A DNA stretch of 50,347 nucleotides from Fulvivirga lutimaris (GTDB taxonomy: Bacteria; Bacteroidota; Bacteroidia; Cytophagales; Cyclobacteriaceae), in NCBI RefSeq assembly GCF_009711525.1, contig NZ_SMLV01000426.1:1-50347 (forward strand), read 5' to 3'. A model generated the notes under the pieces. It was not told the origin of the DNA. It made no database searches and was given only the letters and a program-made list of their open reading frames with translations. The position numbers and the translations under genes are program-made. Shown in pieces: positions 46,320-50,347 of the stretch. How positions within the stretch are numbered: the stretch's first letter is position 1; the number at the start of each line of letters is the position of its first letter.

Positions 46320-46386
46320 GTTTACCAAAAAAGGATTATCACCGATTGTCATTATTCTTTATATTTAAGTGCATAAATTGAATAAA

Positions 46387-46839
46387 ATGAAGTTATCCAC
46401 TAAAGTATTGCTCGGTTTGCTCGCCATTTTGCTGGCAGCACAGCTATTTCAAATTGACAAAGAAAACCCGGTTTATAATCTGGAAAATGATTTACTGGCT
46501 CAGGTGGATGCACCTGGTGAAGTAAAGACTATTTTAAAGCAGGCATGTTATGATTGCCATTCTTATGAAACCAAATATCCATGGTACACCAGTGTGGCAC
46601 CGTTATCCTGGTGGATTGATGAGCATATTCAGGATGGAAGAAAGCATTTCAACTTTTCTGAATGGGGCAACTATGACCTAAAAAAGAAAAAACACAAACT
46701 GGAAGAGTTGATTCATGAGGTTGAAGAAGGTGAGATGCCATTGAATAGCTACACTTGGGCTCATAGTGAAGCTAACCTTTCAGAGGAACAAATTGAGGCA
46801 CTGATAAGCTGGACAAAGGCGACAATAGAGGATTTATAA
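46387..46839 (+). CDS. Heme-binding (cytochrome c-like) protein with CxxCH
   Basis: This 150-residue protein has an N-terminal membrane anchor (residues 5-21) and a small domain with one heme c motif, CYDCH (54-58), followed by SYETKYPWYTSVAPLSWWID. This matches the heme-binding domain family of Bacteroidota. It is probably tethered to the inner membrane and faces the periplasm, where it carries electrons or senses redox (inference). The start is ATG 46387: the frame goes back to a GTG six codons earlier, but the ATG leads directly into the hydrophobic anchor. The next gene begins immediately after its stop (TAA ATG with no spacer), so the two are coupled. Confidence 0.82.
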   Translation: MKLSTKVLLGLLAILLAAQLFQIDKENPVYNLENDLLAQVDAPGEVKTILKQACYDCHSYETKYPWYTSVAPLSWWIDEHIQDGRKHFNFSEWGNYDLKKKKHKLEELIHEVEEGEMPLNSYTWAHSEANLSEEQIEALISWTKATIEDL

Positions 46840-47424
46840 ATGGACAGTGAAGAACAAGGAAAAATAGAAATACCGAAAGAGTTTCATTCGTTTTCAACAG
46901 GAGCCCCTTTTGAGCGTTGCATTGAATGCGACAAAAATCTGATTGAAGGGGAGCAGGAGTACTTCATCGAAAAGGCCGTTAAGCAGTATGAAGGCTTTAG
47001 TGCTCATGATGTGATTTTTGAATATGCCATTTGCCTTTCTTGCGCTGAAAGAATGCGTAATTCTATGTCCAAAGAGTCTATGAAGAGCATTGAGCTGTAC
47101 TTTTCTCAAAACCTTGATTTTGGTAGACGCATGAAGCTCATTCAGGATAATATTGAAAACCCCATTGCGTGGATGGATGAATGTTTATTGAAGGGCACAC
47201 AAAAGAATACAATAAATGAGTATCAGATTTATGCTCATTGTAAAGGGAATCATCTTGATGTTTCACAAATGCCTTATATGGTCAGTGGAGCGGCATTAGA
47301 AGAGATTTCTTCCTTATTATCTAATGAGACGCTTGATGAGCTAGATGGCTTCTCTCAAAAGCATTTTGGACCGCCACCTGAGTTGGCTAACCCAACACCT
47401 TTTAGAAGAGTAGTATTGATTTAA
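46840..47424 (+). CDS. Putative zinc-ribbon-type protein, unknown
   Basis: This 194-residue cytoplasmic protein has two CxxC pairs, CIEC (27-30) and CLSC (65-68), separated by 34 residues, which together form a likely zinc-binding ribbon. The remainder is helical with no other motif I know (SMKSIELYFSQNLDFGRRMK, then a C-terminal PPPELANPTPFRRV). I do not recognise the family. It is coupled to the heme-protein gene at zero spacing, so the two may be co-regulated; the short overlap of its end with the convergent histidine-kinase-like gene is 4 bases. Confidence 0.65.
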   Translation: MDSEEQGKIEIPKEFHSFSTGAPFERCIECDKNLIEGEQEYFIEKAVKQYEGFSAHDVIFEYAICLSCAERMRNSMSKESMKSIELYFSQNLDFGRRMKLIQDNIENPIAWMDECLLKGTQKNTINEYQIYAHCKGNHLDVSQMPYMVSGAALEEISSLLSNETLDELDGFSQKHFGPPPELANPTPFRRVVLI

Positions 47425-48950
47425 TCCTTAGGTTTGATCTCTCCGATCTCTCCATTACCACCAACTTTAGTAGTAATGTCTCTAATAACCTTGTCCAATT
47501 CTGTAGTAGAGGTGAACAGATGAGAAACAATATCTGCATCCTTCTTAGGCAATTCTGAATGCTTTAGAAGCTCTATTAGTCCCAAAATATTAGCTACAGG
47601 AGCTCTTAACTCATGGGCATGGAAAAATGCATAATCGGATAACACCTTATTTTGCTCTCTTAATTGCTCTGTTCGCTGCCTGATTTTCTCTTCAAGATTC
47701 TGATTAGAGCTTTCAAGATTTTCATTCATCTGCTGAAGTTTTACAGATTGCGTTTGAAGTTCATCTGCCTGTTTGGCAATCTGCTCACTCTTAGATTGCA
47801 ATGACTTATTGGCCTGCTTTTGAACTGTTCTCTGATTATAGAATGCATTTGCCAGCGCTATGGTTAATATCAAAAGCATGATAACAGCAATGATCATCGT
47901 ATTCTTTTGCTTTACATCTGCCTTCTTTGCTTCATTATCCTTTTGCAAAATTTCAGTTTCGTACTCAGTCTGGATTCTTGCCAGCTGGGCTGATTTTTCT
48001 AAATTAAAAACACTATCCTTTAACTGTGCGTGTTTTTTATAGTGATAATATGCTCTGGCATAATCTTCATTTAGAGAATCTACCTCAGACAGGTATTTCA
48101 ATAGATTAATTTTCACATCGCTTGCACTTGCACTCTCTGCACTTTTAAGGCCTTTTCTAAAATACTGCTCTGATGAATCCAGTTGATTTAAAGCCATATA
48201 TGTACGGCCAAGATTTGTATATACGTAAGACAATCCCCTTACATCTTCACTTTTCAGTCTGGCATTAACTGCTAATTCAAAATACTTTATTGCTCTTGAA
48301 TAATTATTCTGTTTAAAGTGTATGAGGCCTAAACCGTCATATGCATAAGCGAGAACGCGCTGGTCATTTAACTTTTGAGCTCCTGCAATAGCAATATTGT
48401 AATTTTCCTCTGCGCTATCATACTGTCCCATCAGAGTATATAGCTCACCCAAATTGCTATTAGACAAAGGTGACCCACCTACACCATATAATTTTTCCTT
48501 TAATGATAGCGCATGCTTAAGGTAGTCTAAGGAATTCTGATATTCTCCCAGCTTTTTATAGACCTCACCAATATTATTAAGGCAATCTGACCTGCCCTTC
48601 AAATCATCAAGTTTTTGGTATTCTTTAAGTGCATCTAAGTAATGTAAAAGAGCTTGTTCATAATTACCAAACCCCCAATAAACACCTCCCATCACCGCCA
48701 AAGAACGTGCCTGTCCTCTGACGAATTCCATCTCTTTGGCAGCATTGTAAGCAATGGTTACATCATCCTTAGCTACCAGAGGATTAATACTTATATTGTT
48801 AAAGGCTATTTCATTGAGCAACATAACGCGTAATGAATCATCTTCAGCAGTTTTTAGTGCTAGCACCAAACTGTCTAATTGTACCCGCTGAGCCAGTGCT
48901 GATGAAAAAAGAGCGATAACAAGTATGACTAACAATCTTAACCTTAGCAT
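47421..48950 (-). CDS. TPR protein with HisKA phosphoacceptor domain but no ATPase domain
   Basis: This 509-residue protein has signal peptide MLRLRLLVILVIALFSSALA, TPR repeats in the periplasm (about 40-310; for example LNNIGEVYKKLGEYQNSLDYLKHAL), a membrane helix near 350-370 (MIIAVIMLLILTIALANAFY), a long coiled coil (about 375-440) and then a HisKA-type segment. Its H-box is FFHAHELRAPVANILGL with His446 as the expected phosphorylated residue. Only 63 residues follow, ending GEIGEIKPKD, so the HATPase_c domain of a normal histidine kinase is absent. Start: ATG 48950, because the frame extends only two codons to a GTG. It is tandem to a close paralogue that ends at the same point, so it is not a random truncation. 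Confidence 0.85.
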   Translation of the reverse strand: MLRLRLLVILVIALFSSALAQRVQLDSLVLALKTAEDDSLRVMLLNEIAFNNISINPLVAKDDVTIAYNAAKEMEFVRGQARSLAVMGGVYWGFGNYEQALLHYLDALKEYQKLDDLKGRSDCLNNIGEVYKKLGEYQNSLDYLKHALSLKEKLYGVGGSPLSNSNLGELYTLMGQYDSAEENYNIAIAGAQKLNDQRVLAYAYDGLGLIHFKQNNYSRAIKYFELAVNARLKSEDVRGLSYVYTNLGRTYMALNQLDSSEQYFRKGLKSAESASASDVKINLLKYLSEVDSLNEDYARAYYHYKKHAQLKDSVFNLEKSAQLARIQTEYETEILQKDNEAKKADVKQKNTMIIAVIMLLILTIALANAFYNQRTVQKQANKSLQSKSEQIAKQADELQTQSVKLQQMNENLESSNQNLEEKIRQRTEQLREQNKVLSDYAFFHAHELRAPVANILGLIELLKHSELPKKDADIVSHLFTSTTELDKVIRDITTKVGGNGEIGEIKPKD

Positions 48951-49086
48951 AGCCACAAATATACTAATTTGATATACTCTTACGCTGAGCGCATAAATTA
49001 ATCACTTTTCGTTGAGTCCGTTATTAGGATATGAGAGAGACGGTTAAAGAATATCAAACTAACTACAGTGCGAGGGCAATATAGGT

Positions 49087-50347
49087 CTAAGGTTTAATTT
49101 CTCCATTGCCACTTACTTTAGTGGTAATATTTCTTATCACCTTGTCTAACTCAGAAGTCGCGGTATACAAATGTGCTACAACATCTAAGTCCTTTTGCGG
49201 TAGTTCTGAATGTTTAAGCAGTTCAATAAGTCCTAATATATTGGCTACAGGAGCCCTTAACTCATGCGCATGGAAAAACGCATAATCAGACAGCACCTTA
49301 TTCTGTTCTCTGAGTTGTTCCGTTCTCTGTCTTATCTTCTCTTCCAGGTTCTGGTTTGAGTTTTCAAGATTATCATTCATCTCCTGAAGCTTCACAGATT
49401 GTTTCTGTAGTACTGCCGCCTGACTCTCTATCTGCTCACTTTTTGATTTTAAAGCTTTATTCGCATTCTTCTGAACAGTTCTCTGATTGTAAAAAGCATT
49501 GGCCAAAGCAATAGCCAGTATCAGCAACATAATCACCGCAATGATCATGGTGTTCTTCTGTTTTACATCAGCCTGTTTTGCTTCATTATCTTTCTGCAAA
49601 ATTTCTGTTTCATATTCAGTTTGTATTCTTGCCAGCTGTGCCGATTTCTCTAAATTAAAGATGCTATCCTTAAGTTCTGTATGTTTTTTATAATGATAAA
49701 AGGCTTTAGGGTAATCCCCGTTCAGAGAGTCTACTTCGGATAAATTCTTGTAAACATCTATCAAAATATCATCGGCATTTAACGTAATAGAAGTAGCCAG
49801 ACTTTTTCTTAAGTAATACTCAGCGGAGTCAAGTTCATTAAGGCCTTGAAATGCACTACCTAAATTGAAAAGAGCATAAGCAATACCTCTTTGGTCATCT
49901 AGCGATTGTTCTACTTTAATAGCCTCTTTAAAGTAGCTGATGGATTTATTAAACTGACTGGTTTTCAAATACAATGAACCTAGCCCATTGTTAACGTAAG
50001 CATAAATGCGACTACCCTCCTCAATTTTACCATTTAAAGCTGCCATATAACTGTTCTCGGCATTTTCGTATTGACCCATTAGGGTATACAATTCACCAAG
50101 ATTACTATTAGCCAAAGGAGAGCCTCCAACACCGAGTACAGACTCCTTGAGAGATAGTGCATGCTTAAGGTAGTTTAAGGCGTTATCATAATCGCCAATC
50201 TTTTTATATACCTCTCCAATATTATTAAGACAAATTGAACGACCTATAACATCATCAAGCTTCTGATATTCCTTTAAAGCCGACAAATAGTTCTCCAATG
50301 ATTTTTGATAGTCACCAAATCCCCAATAGGCGCCACCTGTTACAGTT
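49087..50347 (-). CDS. Paralogue of the TPR/HisKA protein (5' end cut by window)
   Basis: This is a 403-codon-plus gene that is open to the right window edge; its first visible residues (GGAYWGFGDYQKSLENYLSA) align with residues 67-85 of the neighbouring paralogue, so roughly 65-70 residues are missing. It has TPR repeats, a membrane helix (MIIAVIMLLILAIALANAF), a coiled coil and the same H-box FFHAHELRAPVANILGL. Only 58 residues follow the His, ending NITTKVSGNGEIKP. Like its neighbour it therefore has no HATPase_c domain. The membrane-to-H-box part is nearly identical in protein sequence to the neighbour, while the TPR part differs more, so the sensor part has diverged after tandem duplication. 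Gap between the two genes: 136 bases. Confidence 0.85.
   Translation of the reverse strand, partial: TVTGGAYWGFGDYQKSLENYLSALKEYQKLDDVIGRSICLNNIGEVYKKIGDYDNALNYLKHALSLKESVLGVGGSPLANSNLGELYTLMGQYENAENSYMAALNGKIEEGSRIYAYVNNGLGSLYLKTSQFNKSISYFKEAIKVEQSLDDQRGIAYALFNLGSAFQGLNELDSAEYYLRKSLATSITLNADDILIDVYKNLSEVDSLNGDYPKAFYHYKKHTELKDSIFNLEKSAQLARIQTEYETEILQKDNEAKQADVKQKNTMIIAVIMLLILAIALANAFYNQRTVQKNANKALKSKSEQIESQAAVLQKQSVKLQEMNDNLENSNQNLEEKIRQRTEQLREQNKVLSDYAFFHAHELRAPVANILGLIELLKHSELPQKDLDVVAHLYTATSELDKVIRNITTKVSGNGEIKP

Follow-up and report, generated by a model that had tools for sequence, protein, structure and literature searches.

Why should two adjacent genes encode proteins that read as histidine kinases up to the phospho-acceptor helices and then end, leaving no ATPase domain? 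The question is raised by a stretch of DNA from Fulvivirga lutimaris (RefSeq assembly GCF_009711525.1), called the window here, which is the complete contig NZ_SMLV01000426.1 of 50,347 bases. At its right end, two tandem paralogues (copies 1 and 2) encode a TPR region, a membrane helix, a coiled coil and a HisKA-like DHp hairpin bearing the H-box His, and nothing beyond a short tail. Such proteins are called half kinases below, and those in which the ATPase domain HATPase_c follows the hairpin, full kinases. Their architecture, fixed end point and conserved His were observed, together with a relaxed acid at position +1 from the His, a half/full split in the DHp tree and, for proteins of the receiver-PAS-half form, kinase-receiver operons. 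From these observations, we consider it about an even chance that half kinases are sensor-gated His phosphotransferases, an ATPase-free branch of the HisKA-type DHp in Bacteroidota that would work at a middle step of phosphorelays.

Two half-kinase genes at the contig end

Pfam detected TPR repeats in both copies, together with HisKA matches that narrowly miss the curated cut-off of 26.9 bits (24.1 bits in copy 1, 22.5 bits in copy 2). HATPase_c had no Pfam match in either copy, and the Hpt profile (PF01627) was absent among the 23 families listed at E <= 1 for copy 1 and among 25 of the 27 listed for copy 2. Partial matches to kinase models of NCBIfam stayed below their curated cut-offs and one PAS domain model exceeded its own; a profile search of the PDB gave ten hits with E <= 0.01, which carry the names of histidine kinases or related sensors. 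From the H-box His to the stop, 63 residues were measured in copy 1 and 58 in copy 2. The sequence-only reading had described tandem half histidine kinases with TPR, membrane helix and HisKA but no ATPase domain, stopping 58-63 residues after the His, and for both open reading frames (ORFs) this was confirmed by Pfam, by the translations and by a model of copy 1. The signal peptide that it also mentioned was recognized in copy 1 only, by reading, the N-terminus of copy 2 lying outside the contig. The TPR region of copy 1 is probably periplasmic, because it stands between this signal peptide and a transmembrane helix, likewise recognized by reading. The start codon of copy 1 is GTG, and an ATG lies two codons further in; the presumed phospho-acceptor is His448 when numbered from the GTG and His446 when numbered from the ATG.

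The AlphaFold2 model of copy 1 (13 alignment rows) had a mean predicted local distance difference test score (pLDDT) of 81.6. It shows helical repeats, then a single long helix (residues 299-465) spanning the membrane segment, the coiled coil and the first DHp helix, followed by a short loop, the second DHp helix (471-499) and a low-confidence, non-helical tail (500-511). The DHp part, with a pLDDT of 61-71 per block of ten, was of modest confidence; with that modest confidence, the model suggests that copy 1 contains a whole DHp hairpin, after which the protein ends. Because copy 1 shares 4 bp with the end of a convergent ORF and the spacer between the copies has no listed ORF of 60 aa or more, no ATPase domain can be reached through a shifted frame.

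The end point is kept in orthologues

Orthologues were sought in 18 relatives at E <= 1e-40. A syntenic orthologue was found in 11 of the 12 other species of the genus, with a single match each, 37-61% identity and open frames of 503-538 aa; none was found at this threshold in the six genomes from other families of the order. Fulvivirga imtechensis AK7 is among the orthologue-bearing genomes (its loci L060 and L321 are identical). The convergent 194 aa ORF adjoins all 11 orthologues (by reading), and a gene for a pyridoxal phosphate enzyme with CBS domain adjoins 10 of them (by reading, with Pfam run on one). The 11 orthologues stop 55-64 residues past the His, and HATPase_c is absent from all 13 orthologue rows. 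When five named genomes were searched at E <= 1e-30, relatives of 515-524 aa stopping 58-62 aa past the His were found in three Marivirga genomes, and Imperialibacter gave no match.

Over the 13 rows, mean pairwise identity was 0.71 in the H-box, 0.42 in the remaining hairpin, 0.38 in the TPR region and 0.24 in the tail, so that the H-box ranks first in conservation among the seven stretches compared. Copies 1 and 2 are 70% identical across the 419 codons they have in common. Nonsynonymous divergence between them (dN) was 0.066 in the DHp and 0.315 in the TPR region; synonymous sites were at or close to saturation, dS being 2.8 in the DHp and beyond computation in the TPR region. Stop position and H-box are thus kept in the orthologues, and the ITTKV-x-GNGEI tail is, judging from the alignments, a mark of recent duplication only. 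A kept design had been proposed from the two copies. This proposal is strongly supported by the orthologues, by the 12 half kinases of the genome and by the spread over the phylum, but the shared tail does not stand as its mark: a conserved tail motif was set aside, the tail not being conserved beyond the duplication. A truncated pseudogene pair was also set aside, since the orthologues have the same end point.

Twelve half kinases in one genome

The genome was searched with the C-terminal piece of the window protein, giving 62 matches at E <= 1. Thirteen had no HATPase_c match within 600 bp downstream, and one of these (C35:19648) was removed because its frame reads as an ABC-F ATPase. The genome therefore holds 12 half kinases, and they end 52-73 aa past the H-box position. 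Six have an N-terminal TPR region, one has a GAF domain behind a membrane region and five have membrane regions with no Pfam family (Pfam and reading of the translations). Pfam totals for the genome were 89 matches for HATPase_c, 70 for the receiver domain and 5 for Hpt. An orphan Hpt was looked for and rejected, since all five Hpt matches share their frame, of 632-1092 aa, with HATPase_c.

In one tandem pair (C28, L049:2365-4406), two half kinases overlap by 4 bp; the first has Lys for the H-box His (NSKLVRGP) and the second is intact. The Lys-bearing member is possibly a His-less partner in a mixed dimer. Tandem same-strand pairs also recur, besides the window, in other genomes of the phylum (L226, L214, L216). 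The opposite kind of half was seen at C243:5933 (L121:1359-2252), a kinase whose ATPase domain reads as intact and which has Asn at the expected H-box His (NVRNEIVNPL); a receiver gene adjoins it.

A family spread over the phylum

An initial profile, narrower than the later one, had matches at E <= 1e-12 in 29 of 118 genomes of the phylum. The half-kinase profile was applied to 296 genomes of this phylum, with the best 16 candidates per genome scored; 80 genomes had a match at E <= 1e-13, full kinases included. Eighty regions were chosen from the best matches outside the genome of the window, a few at about E 2e-18 to 2e-17 being passed over; having been picked in this way, their share of half kinases tells nothing about overall frequency. 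In these regions and the window, 99 ORFs matched a DHp hidden Markov model (HMM) built here (E < 1e-6), 83 without and 16 with an ATPase domain. The half set was reduced from 83 to 82, two of them from the window, by removing L188|+|3|2519. This full-type kinase frame, with a full-type H-box, stops 79 aa past it, and an ATPase-like frame of 136 aa comes next, so that a frameshift may have occurred. Pfam found PAS_9 in 57 of the 82, HisKA in 49, a receiver in 16, GAF in 10 and TPR_12 in 9; HATPase_c and Hpt were absent among 25 of the 39 families listed.

In a scan of named genomes, at least 552 relatives were confirmed and 79 loci kept. Each of the 79 contains at least one half kinase, for a total of 81, with the stop 52-87 aa past the His. 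Apart from one metagenome-assembled genome (MAG), their titles are all from Bacteroidota or Balneolia (Flavobacterium, Algoriphagus, Marivirga, Dyadobacter, Mucilaginibacter, Pedobacter, Chitinophaga and others). On these profile matches, half kinases are a phylum-wide family in Bacteroidota. Thalassovita belongs to the Alphaproteobacteria; the MAG so titled (L246) holds a family member, probably through a binning error or transfer.

H-box signature and the half/full split

H-boxes were compared in 102 half kinases and 70 full kinases and, separately, in the 81 half kinases of the named set. The counts of 102 and 70 refer to non-identical H-boxes. As the rows are related, none of the counts stand for independent events; the two half sets overlap in part (L245 and L163, for instance, are apparently the same locus). 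One ORF with the motif out of register (L214|+|1679) was left out, and ORFs not fitting the H-box pattern were not counted as half in the genome of the window, its orthologues and the 79-locus set. The pattern requires Pro at +5, so that Pro in 102/102 proves nothing.

The half kinases have the His in 101 of 102, Arg at +3 in all, Gln, Asn or His at -2 in 90, an acid at +1 in 34 (always Glu) and Thr or Asn at +4 in none. The corresponding counts in the 70 full kinases are 69 for the His, 48 for Arg at +3, 60 for Asp or Glu at +1 (69 if Asn is included) and 11 for Thr or Asn at +4. In the named set, the His is present in 81/81, Asp or Glu at +1 in one and Ala at +4 in 81/81. The acid at +1 is the general base for the attack on ATP. 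A kept His with a relaxed +1 acid therefore suits His-Asp transfer rather than ATP use.

The same counts bear on a role as receiver phosphatases, in which the HisKA domain would dephosphorylate receivers. Such a role was named an intriguing possibility for archaeal HisKA proteins lacking HATPase (PMC5847659). The HE/DxxN/T phosphatase motif is missing in 102/102 half kinases and +4 is Ala throughout the named set, an argument tempered by the 59 of 70 full kinases that also lack the motif. We regard this role as quite improbable for the family.

The distance from H-box to end separates the two groups without overlap, being 45-79 aa in all 102 half kinases and at least 178 aa in full kinases. 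No frame with 80-177 aa past the His occurred in the 80-region sample or in the genome of the window and its orthologues, and one, of 87 aa, in the 79-locus set. This gap is difficult to reconcile with decayed or mis-assembled kinases whose ATPase domain was lost by a stop or frameshift. The locus L188 described above, outside the family, does resemble a broken full kinase, but the 11 syntenic orthologues ending at the same point had already refuted decay for the window, and the dN in the DHp of the two copies is low despite their saturated or nearly saturated synonymous sites. Decay is hardly credible as an explanation of the family.

In a FastTree tree of 172 rows, half and full kinases were separated by one change, with a support of 90. 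A mixture-model tree, for which the non-redundant rows of the two kinds (73 and 51) were trimmed to end 39 residues past the His, again gave one change (83 in the Shimodaira-Hasegawa-like approximate likelihood ratio test, SH-aLRT); the direction of change is not given by these trees. There is good but not firm evidence that the half kinases have a single origin, the reserve being due to few columns and few well-supported branches. The sequence-only reading would have been contradicted by relatives carrying HATPase_c directly after the same helices, broken here by a frameshift or stop. This was not what was seen: the nearest full kinases, for example C189:69820, fall across the half/full split.

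Receiver operons

Half kinases of the receiver-PAS-half type were defined as those with an internal receiver and fewer than 420 aa (PAS was confirmed by Pfam in four examples). The named loci contain 46 such proteins. A single-domain receiver lies just upstream on the same strand in 40, a frame matching an ATPase HMM built here lies within 1.5 kb upstream on the same strand in 42, and a receiver lies just downstream in 17. Every one of these receivers has Asp in the phospho-Asp column, whether internal (46/46), upstream (40/40) or downstream (17/17). For the conserved Lys the figures are 46/46, 39/40 and 16/17, respectively, and the two other rows have a gap there. In the 80-region sample, a single receiver adjoins 13 of 15 half kinases with an internal receiver; in the same regions the corresponding figures are 5 of 16 for full kinases and 5 of 228 for other ORFs of at least 250 aa. 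The operon argument is strong for the receiver-PAS-half form and weak for pure sensor forms such as those of the window.

Proposed mechanism and competing explanations

In the proposed mechanism, the half kinase would form a dimeric four-helix bundle exposing the His, which would take the phosphoryl group from a phosphorylated receiver and pass it to another receiver. The relay would thus run from kinase His to receiver Asp, then to the half-kinase His and on to a second receiver Asp. The N-terminal domain (TPR and transmembrane helix in the window; PAS, REC, GAF or several transmembrane helices elsewhere) would control whether the relay runs. The kept His, the free +1 position, the lack of phosphatase motif and ATPase domain and the intact flanking receivers fit a phosphotransferase of the Spo0B/ChpT/PhyT kind. 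Of the three mechanisms first offered (phosphorylation in trans, phosphotransfer and titration through heterodimers), phosphotransfer appears to fit best.

Several observations weigh against this mechanism. Half kinases without an internal receiver have an adjoining single receiver in only 7 of 65 cases in the 80-region sample and 4 of 29 in the named loci. No receiver was found closer than 5 kb to any of the genome's 12 half kinases, the two of the window included, whereas 43 of 89 HATPase_c matches have one at that distance (Fisher p 0.001); the figure of 43 is raised by hybrid kinases with a receiver in the same protein, and several half-kinase contigs are short, which weakens the contrast. 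The +1 acid is also missing in 10 of the 70 full kinases (9 Asn, 1 Lys), and the full kinases closest in sequence to half kinases have Asn there, so that its loss is not unique to the half lineage. ChpT and PhyT retain an ATPase-like domain and half kinases have none. The Lys for His in the C28 pair means that some half kinases may act without phosphate. Finally, the TPR orthologues keep Glu at +1 in 13/13 rows, as expected of a domain phosphorylated by an ATPase in trans. The TPR members of the window may use the same chemistry, by extension from their homologues, and are the least certain of the family because of this kept Glu and the absence of a receiver neighbour.

The kept Glu would suit a split kinase on the pattern of CheA3/CheA4: a second kinase would supply the ATPase domain that phosphorylates the His of the half DHp, either from within a mixed dimer or in trans. 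Split CheA proteins offer precedents (CheA3/CheA4, PMC3591291; Hik36/Hik43, PMC7656254), and the kinase at C243:5933, with Asn for His, belongs to the same genome. In those systems, phospho-acceptor and ATPase lie on separate proteins; for the half kinases, no partner ATPase was found among the HATPase_c frames below 300 aa. The stand-alone HATPase_c check that had been suggested covered part of the 89 matches, the seven frames below 300 aa, by reading: six read as kinases with their own dimerisation region and the seventh as an RsbW-like protein of 137 aa (C84), and a stand-alone partner was set aside as far as these short frames go. The +1 acid is missing in most of the family (68/102, and 80/81 in the named set), and half and full DHp domains form separate lineages, which makes mixed dimers less likely. 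A split kinase is accordingly judged an unlikely account.

A non-catalytic regulator is as doubtful. Here the DHp would only dimerise or bind receivers or kinases, by titration or sequestration, as RocA does on CsrS. RocA modulates its kinase through binding (PMC6635533), and both the Lys-bearing member of the C28 pair and the missing receiver neighbours in this genome would agree with such a role. The His is nevertheless retained in 101/102 and 81/81 proteins, and a mere binding surface need not show the difference in identity between H-box and TPR region found in the orthologues.

Relation to described proteins

On the proposed mechanism, half kinases would resemble Spo0B, ChpT and PhyT, dimeric proteins derived from kinases that use the His of a kinase-like DHp hairpin to carry phosphate from one receiver to another. 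Spo0B retains an atypical or degenerate ATPase domain. The same holds for the other two, of which ChpT is unable to autophosphorylate with ATP (PMC3433190) and PhyT, whose domain is degenerate, hands phosphate from SdrG to PhyR (PMC5898713). In half kinases no degenerate C-terminal ATPase-like domain was found, all 102 having stopped within the distance given above, and a sensor is usually attached. With HisKA histidine kinases (PF00512 and PF02518) they share the hairpin and the H-box; the window proteins have the DHp hairpin with its His (a HisKA match below cut-off and a modest model) and no HATPase_c. They differ in lacking the ATPase domain, in having mostly lost the +1 acid and in their place across the half/full split.

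The general kind, HisKA without HATPase, is already in print. In SMART, 1556 of 42417 HisKA proteins were without HATPase and 711 of the 1556 carried HE/DxxN/T (PMC3591291), a motif found in 0/102 of the present family. The P2CS database uses the label 'possible incomplete histidine kinase' (PMC2716373), which fits the window proteins, with their TPR sensor and HisKA with His but no HATPase; truncated proteins of Archaeoglobus were left aside in a census of 2005 (PMC1183210). A 2018 archaeal census described 'nonenzymatic HK-like proteins', said to be misannotated as kinases, for which phospho-acceptor, phosphotransfer or phosphatase roles were suggested, as well as REC-PAS/GAF-HisKA proteins without HATPase, none of which had been studied at that date (PMC5847659). 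The former also combine sensors with a HisKA-like domain, a conserved His and no HATPase, with several per genome (7 in three archaea). Compared by description, half kinases differ in belonging to Bacteroidota, in forming one DHp lineage with its own H-box signature, in numbering 12 in one genome and in their conserved kinase-receiver operons. No description of the Bacteroidota family was found in the excerpts seen of open-licence PubMed Central (PMC) literature.

Coordinates and neighbouring genes

The features of the two genes are collected in Table 1. The convergent ORF contains two cysteine pairs (CIECDK and CLSC), and directly upstream of it, at 46369-46839 (+), lies a gene for a Haem_bd protein (PF14376).

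Table 1. Positions in the window of the two half-kinase genes, their parts and the adjoining ORF
Feature	Coordinates	Strand	Remarks
Half-kinase gene copy 1	47421..48956	-	511 aa; signal peptide, TPR, transmembrane helix, coiled coil, DHp hairpin, stop
Half-kinase gene copy 2	49087..50346	-	419 aa; 5' end beyond contig end
Copy 1 TPR region, residues 23-345, probably periplasmic	47922..48890	-	Pfam TPR_12 E 3e-27 and helical repeats in model
Copy 1 membrane helix, residues 350-375	47832..47909	-	hydrophobic stretch spotted by reading the translation
Copy 1 DHp/HisKA-like hairpin, residues 436-499	47460..47651	-	HisKA 24.1 bits and model
Codon of presumed phospho-acceptor His448, copy 1, motif AHELRAPVANILGL	47613..47615	-	invariant in 13/13 orthologue rows
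Codon of presumed phospho-acceptor His, copy 2	49264..49266	-	58 residues before the stop
Spacer between copies, 130 bp	48957..49086	.	no listed ORF of >=60 aa
Convergent neighbour ORF, 194 aa	46840..47424	+	no Pfam match; bounds copy 1 on 3' side

Significance

In annotated genomes, half-kinase genes probably go under the names of histidine kinases or of TPR or PAS proteins, and kinase counts and kinase-regulator wiring in Bacteroidota may for this reason be misread. The ATPase-free DHp could count as a third kind of phosphotransfer module, next to Hpt and to proteins of the Spo0B/ChpT type, spread behind many sensors as a signal-gated relay layer between receivers; we put this at somewhat less than an even chance. 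If half kinases are sensor-gated phosphotransferases, signals would enter the phosphorelay at a step usually thought passive, sensing would be placed in mid-relay rather than at the ATP-using kinase, and the receiver-PAS-half operons would constitute compact four-step relays.

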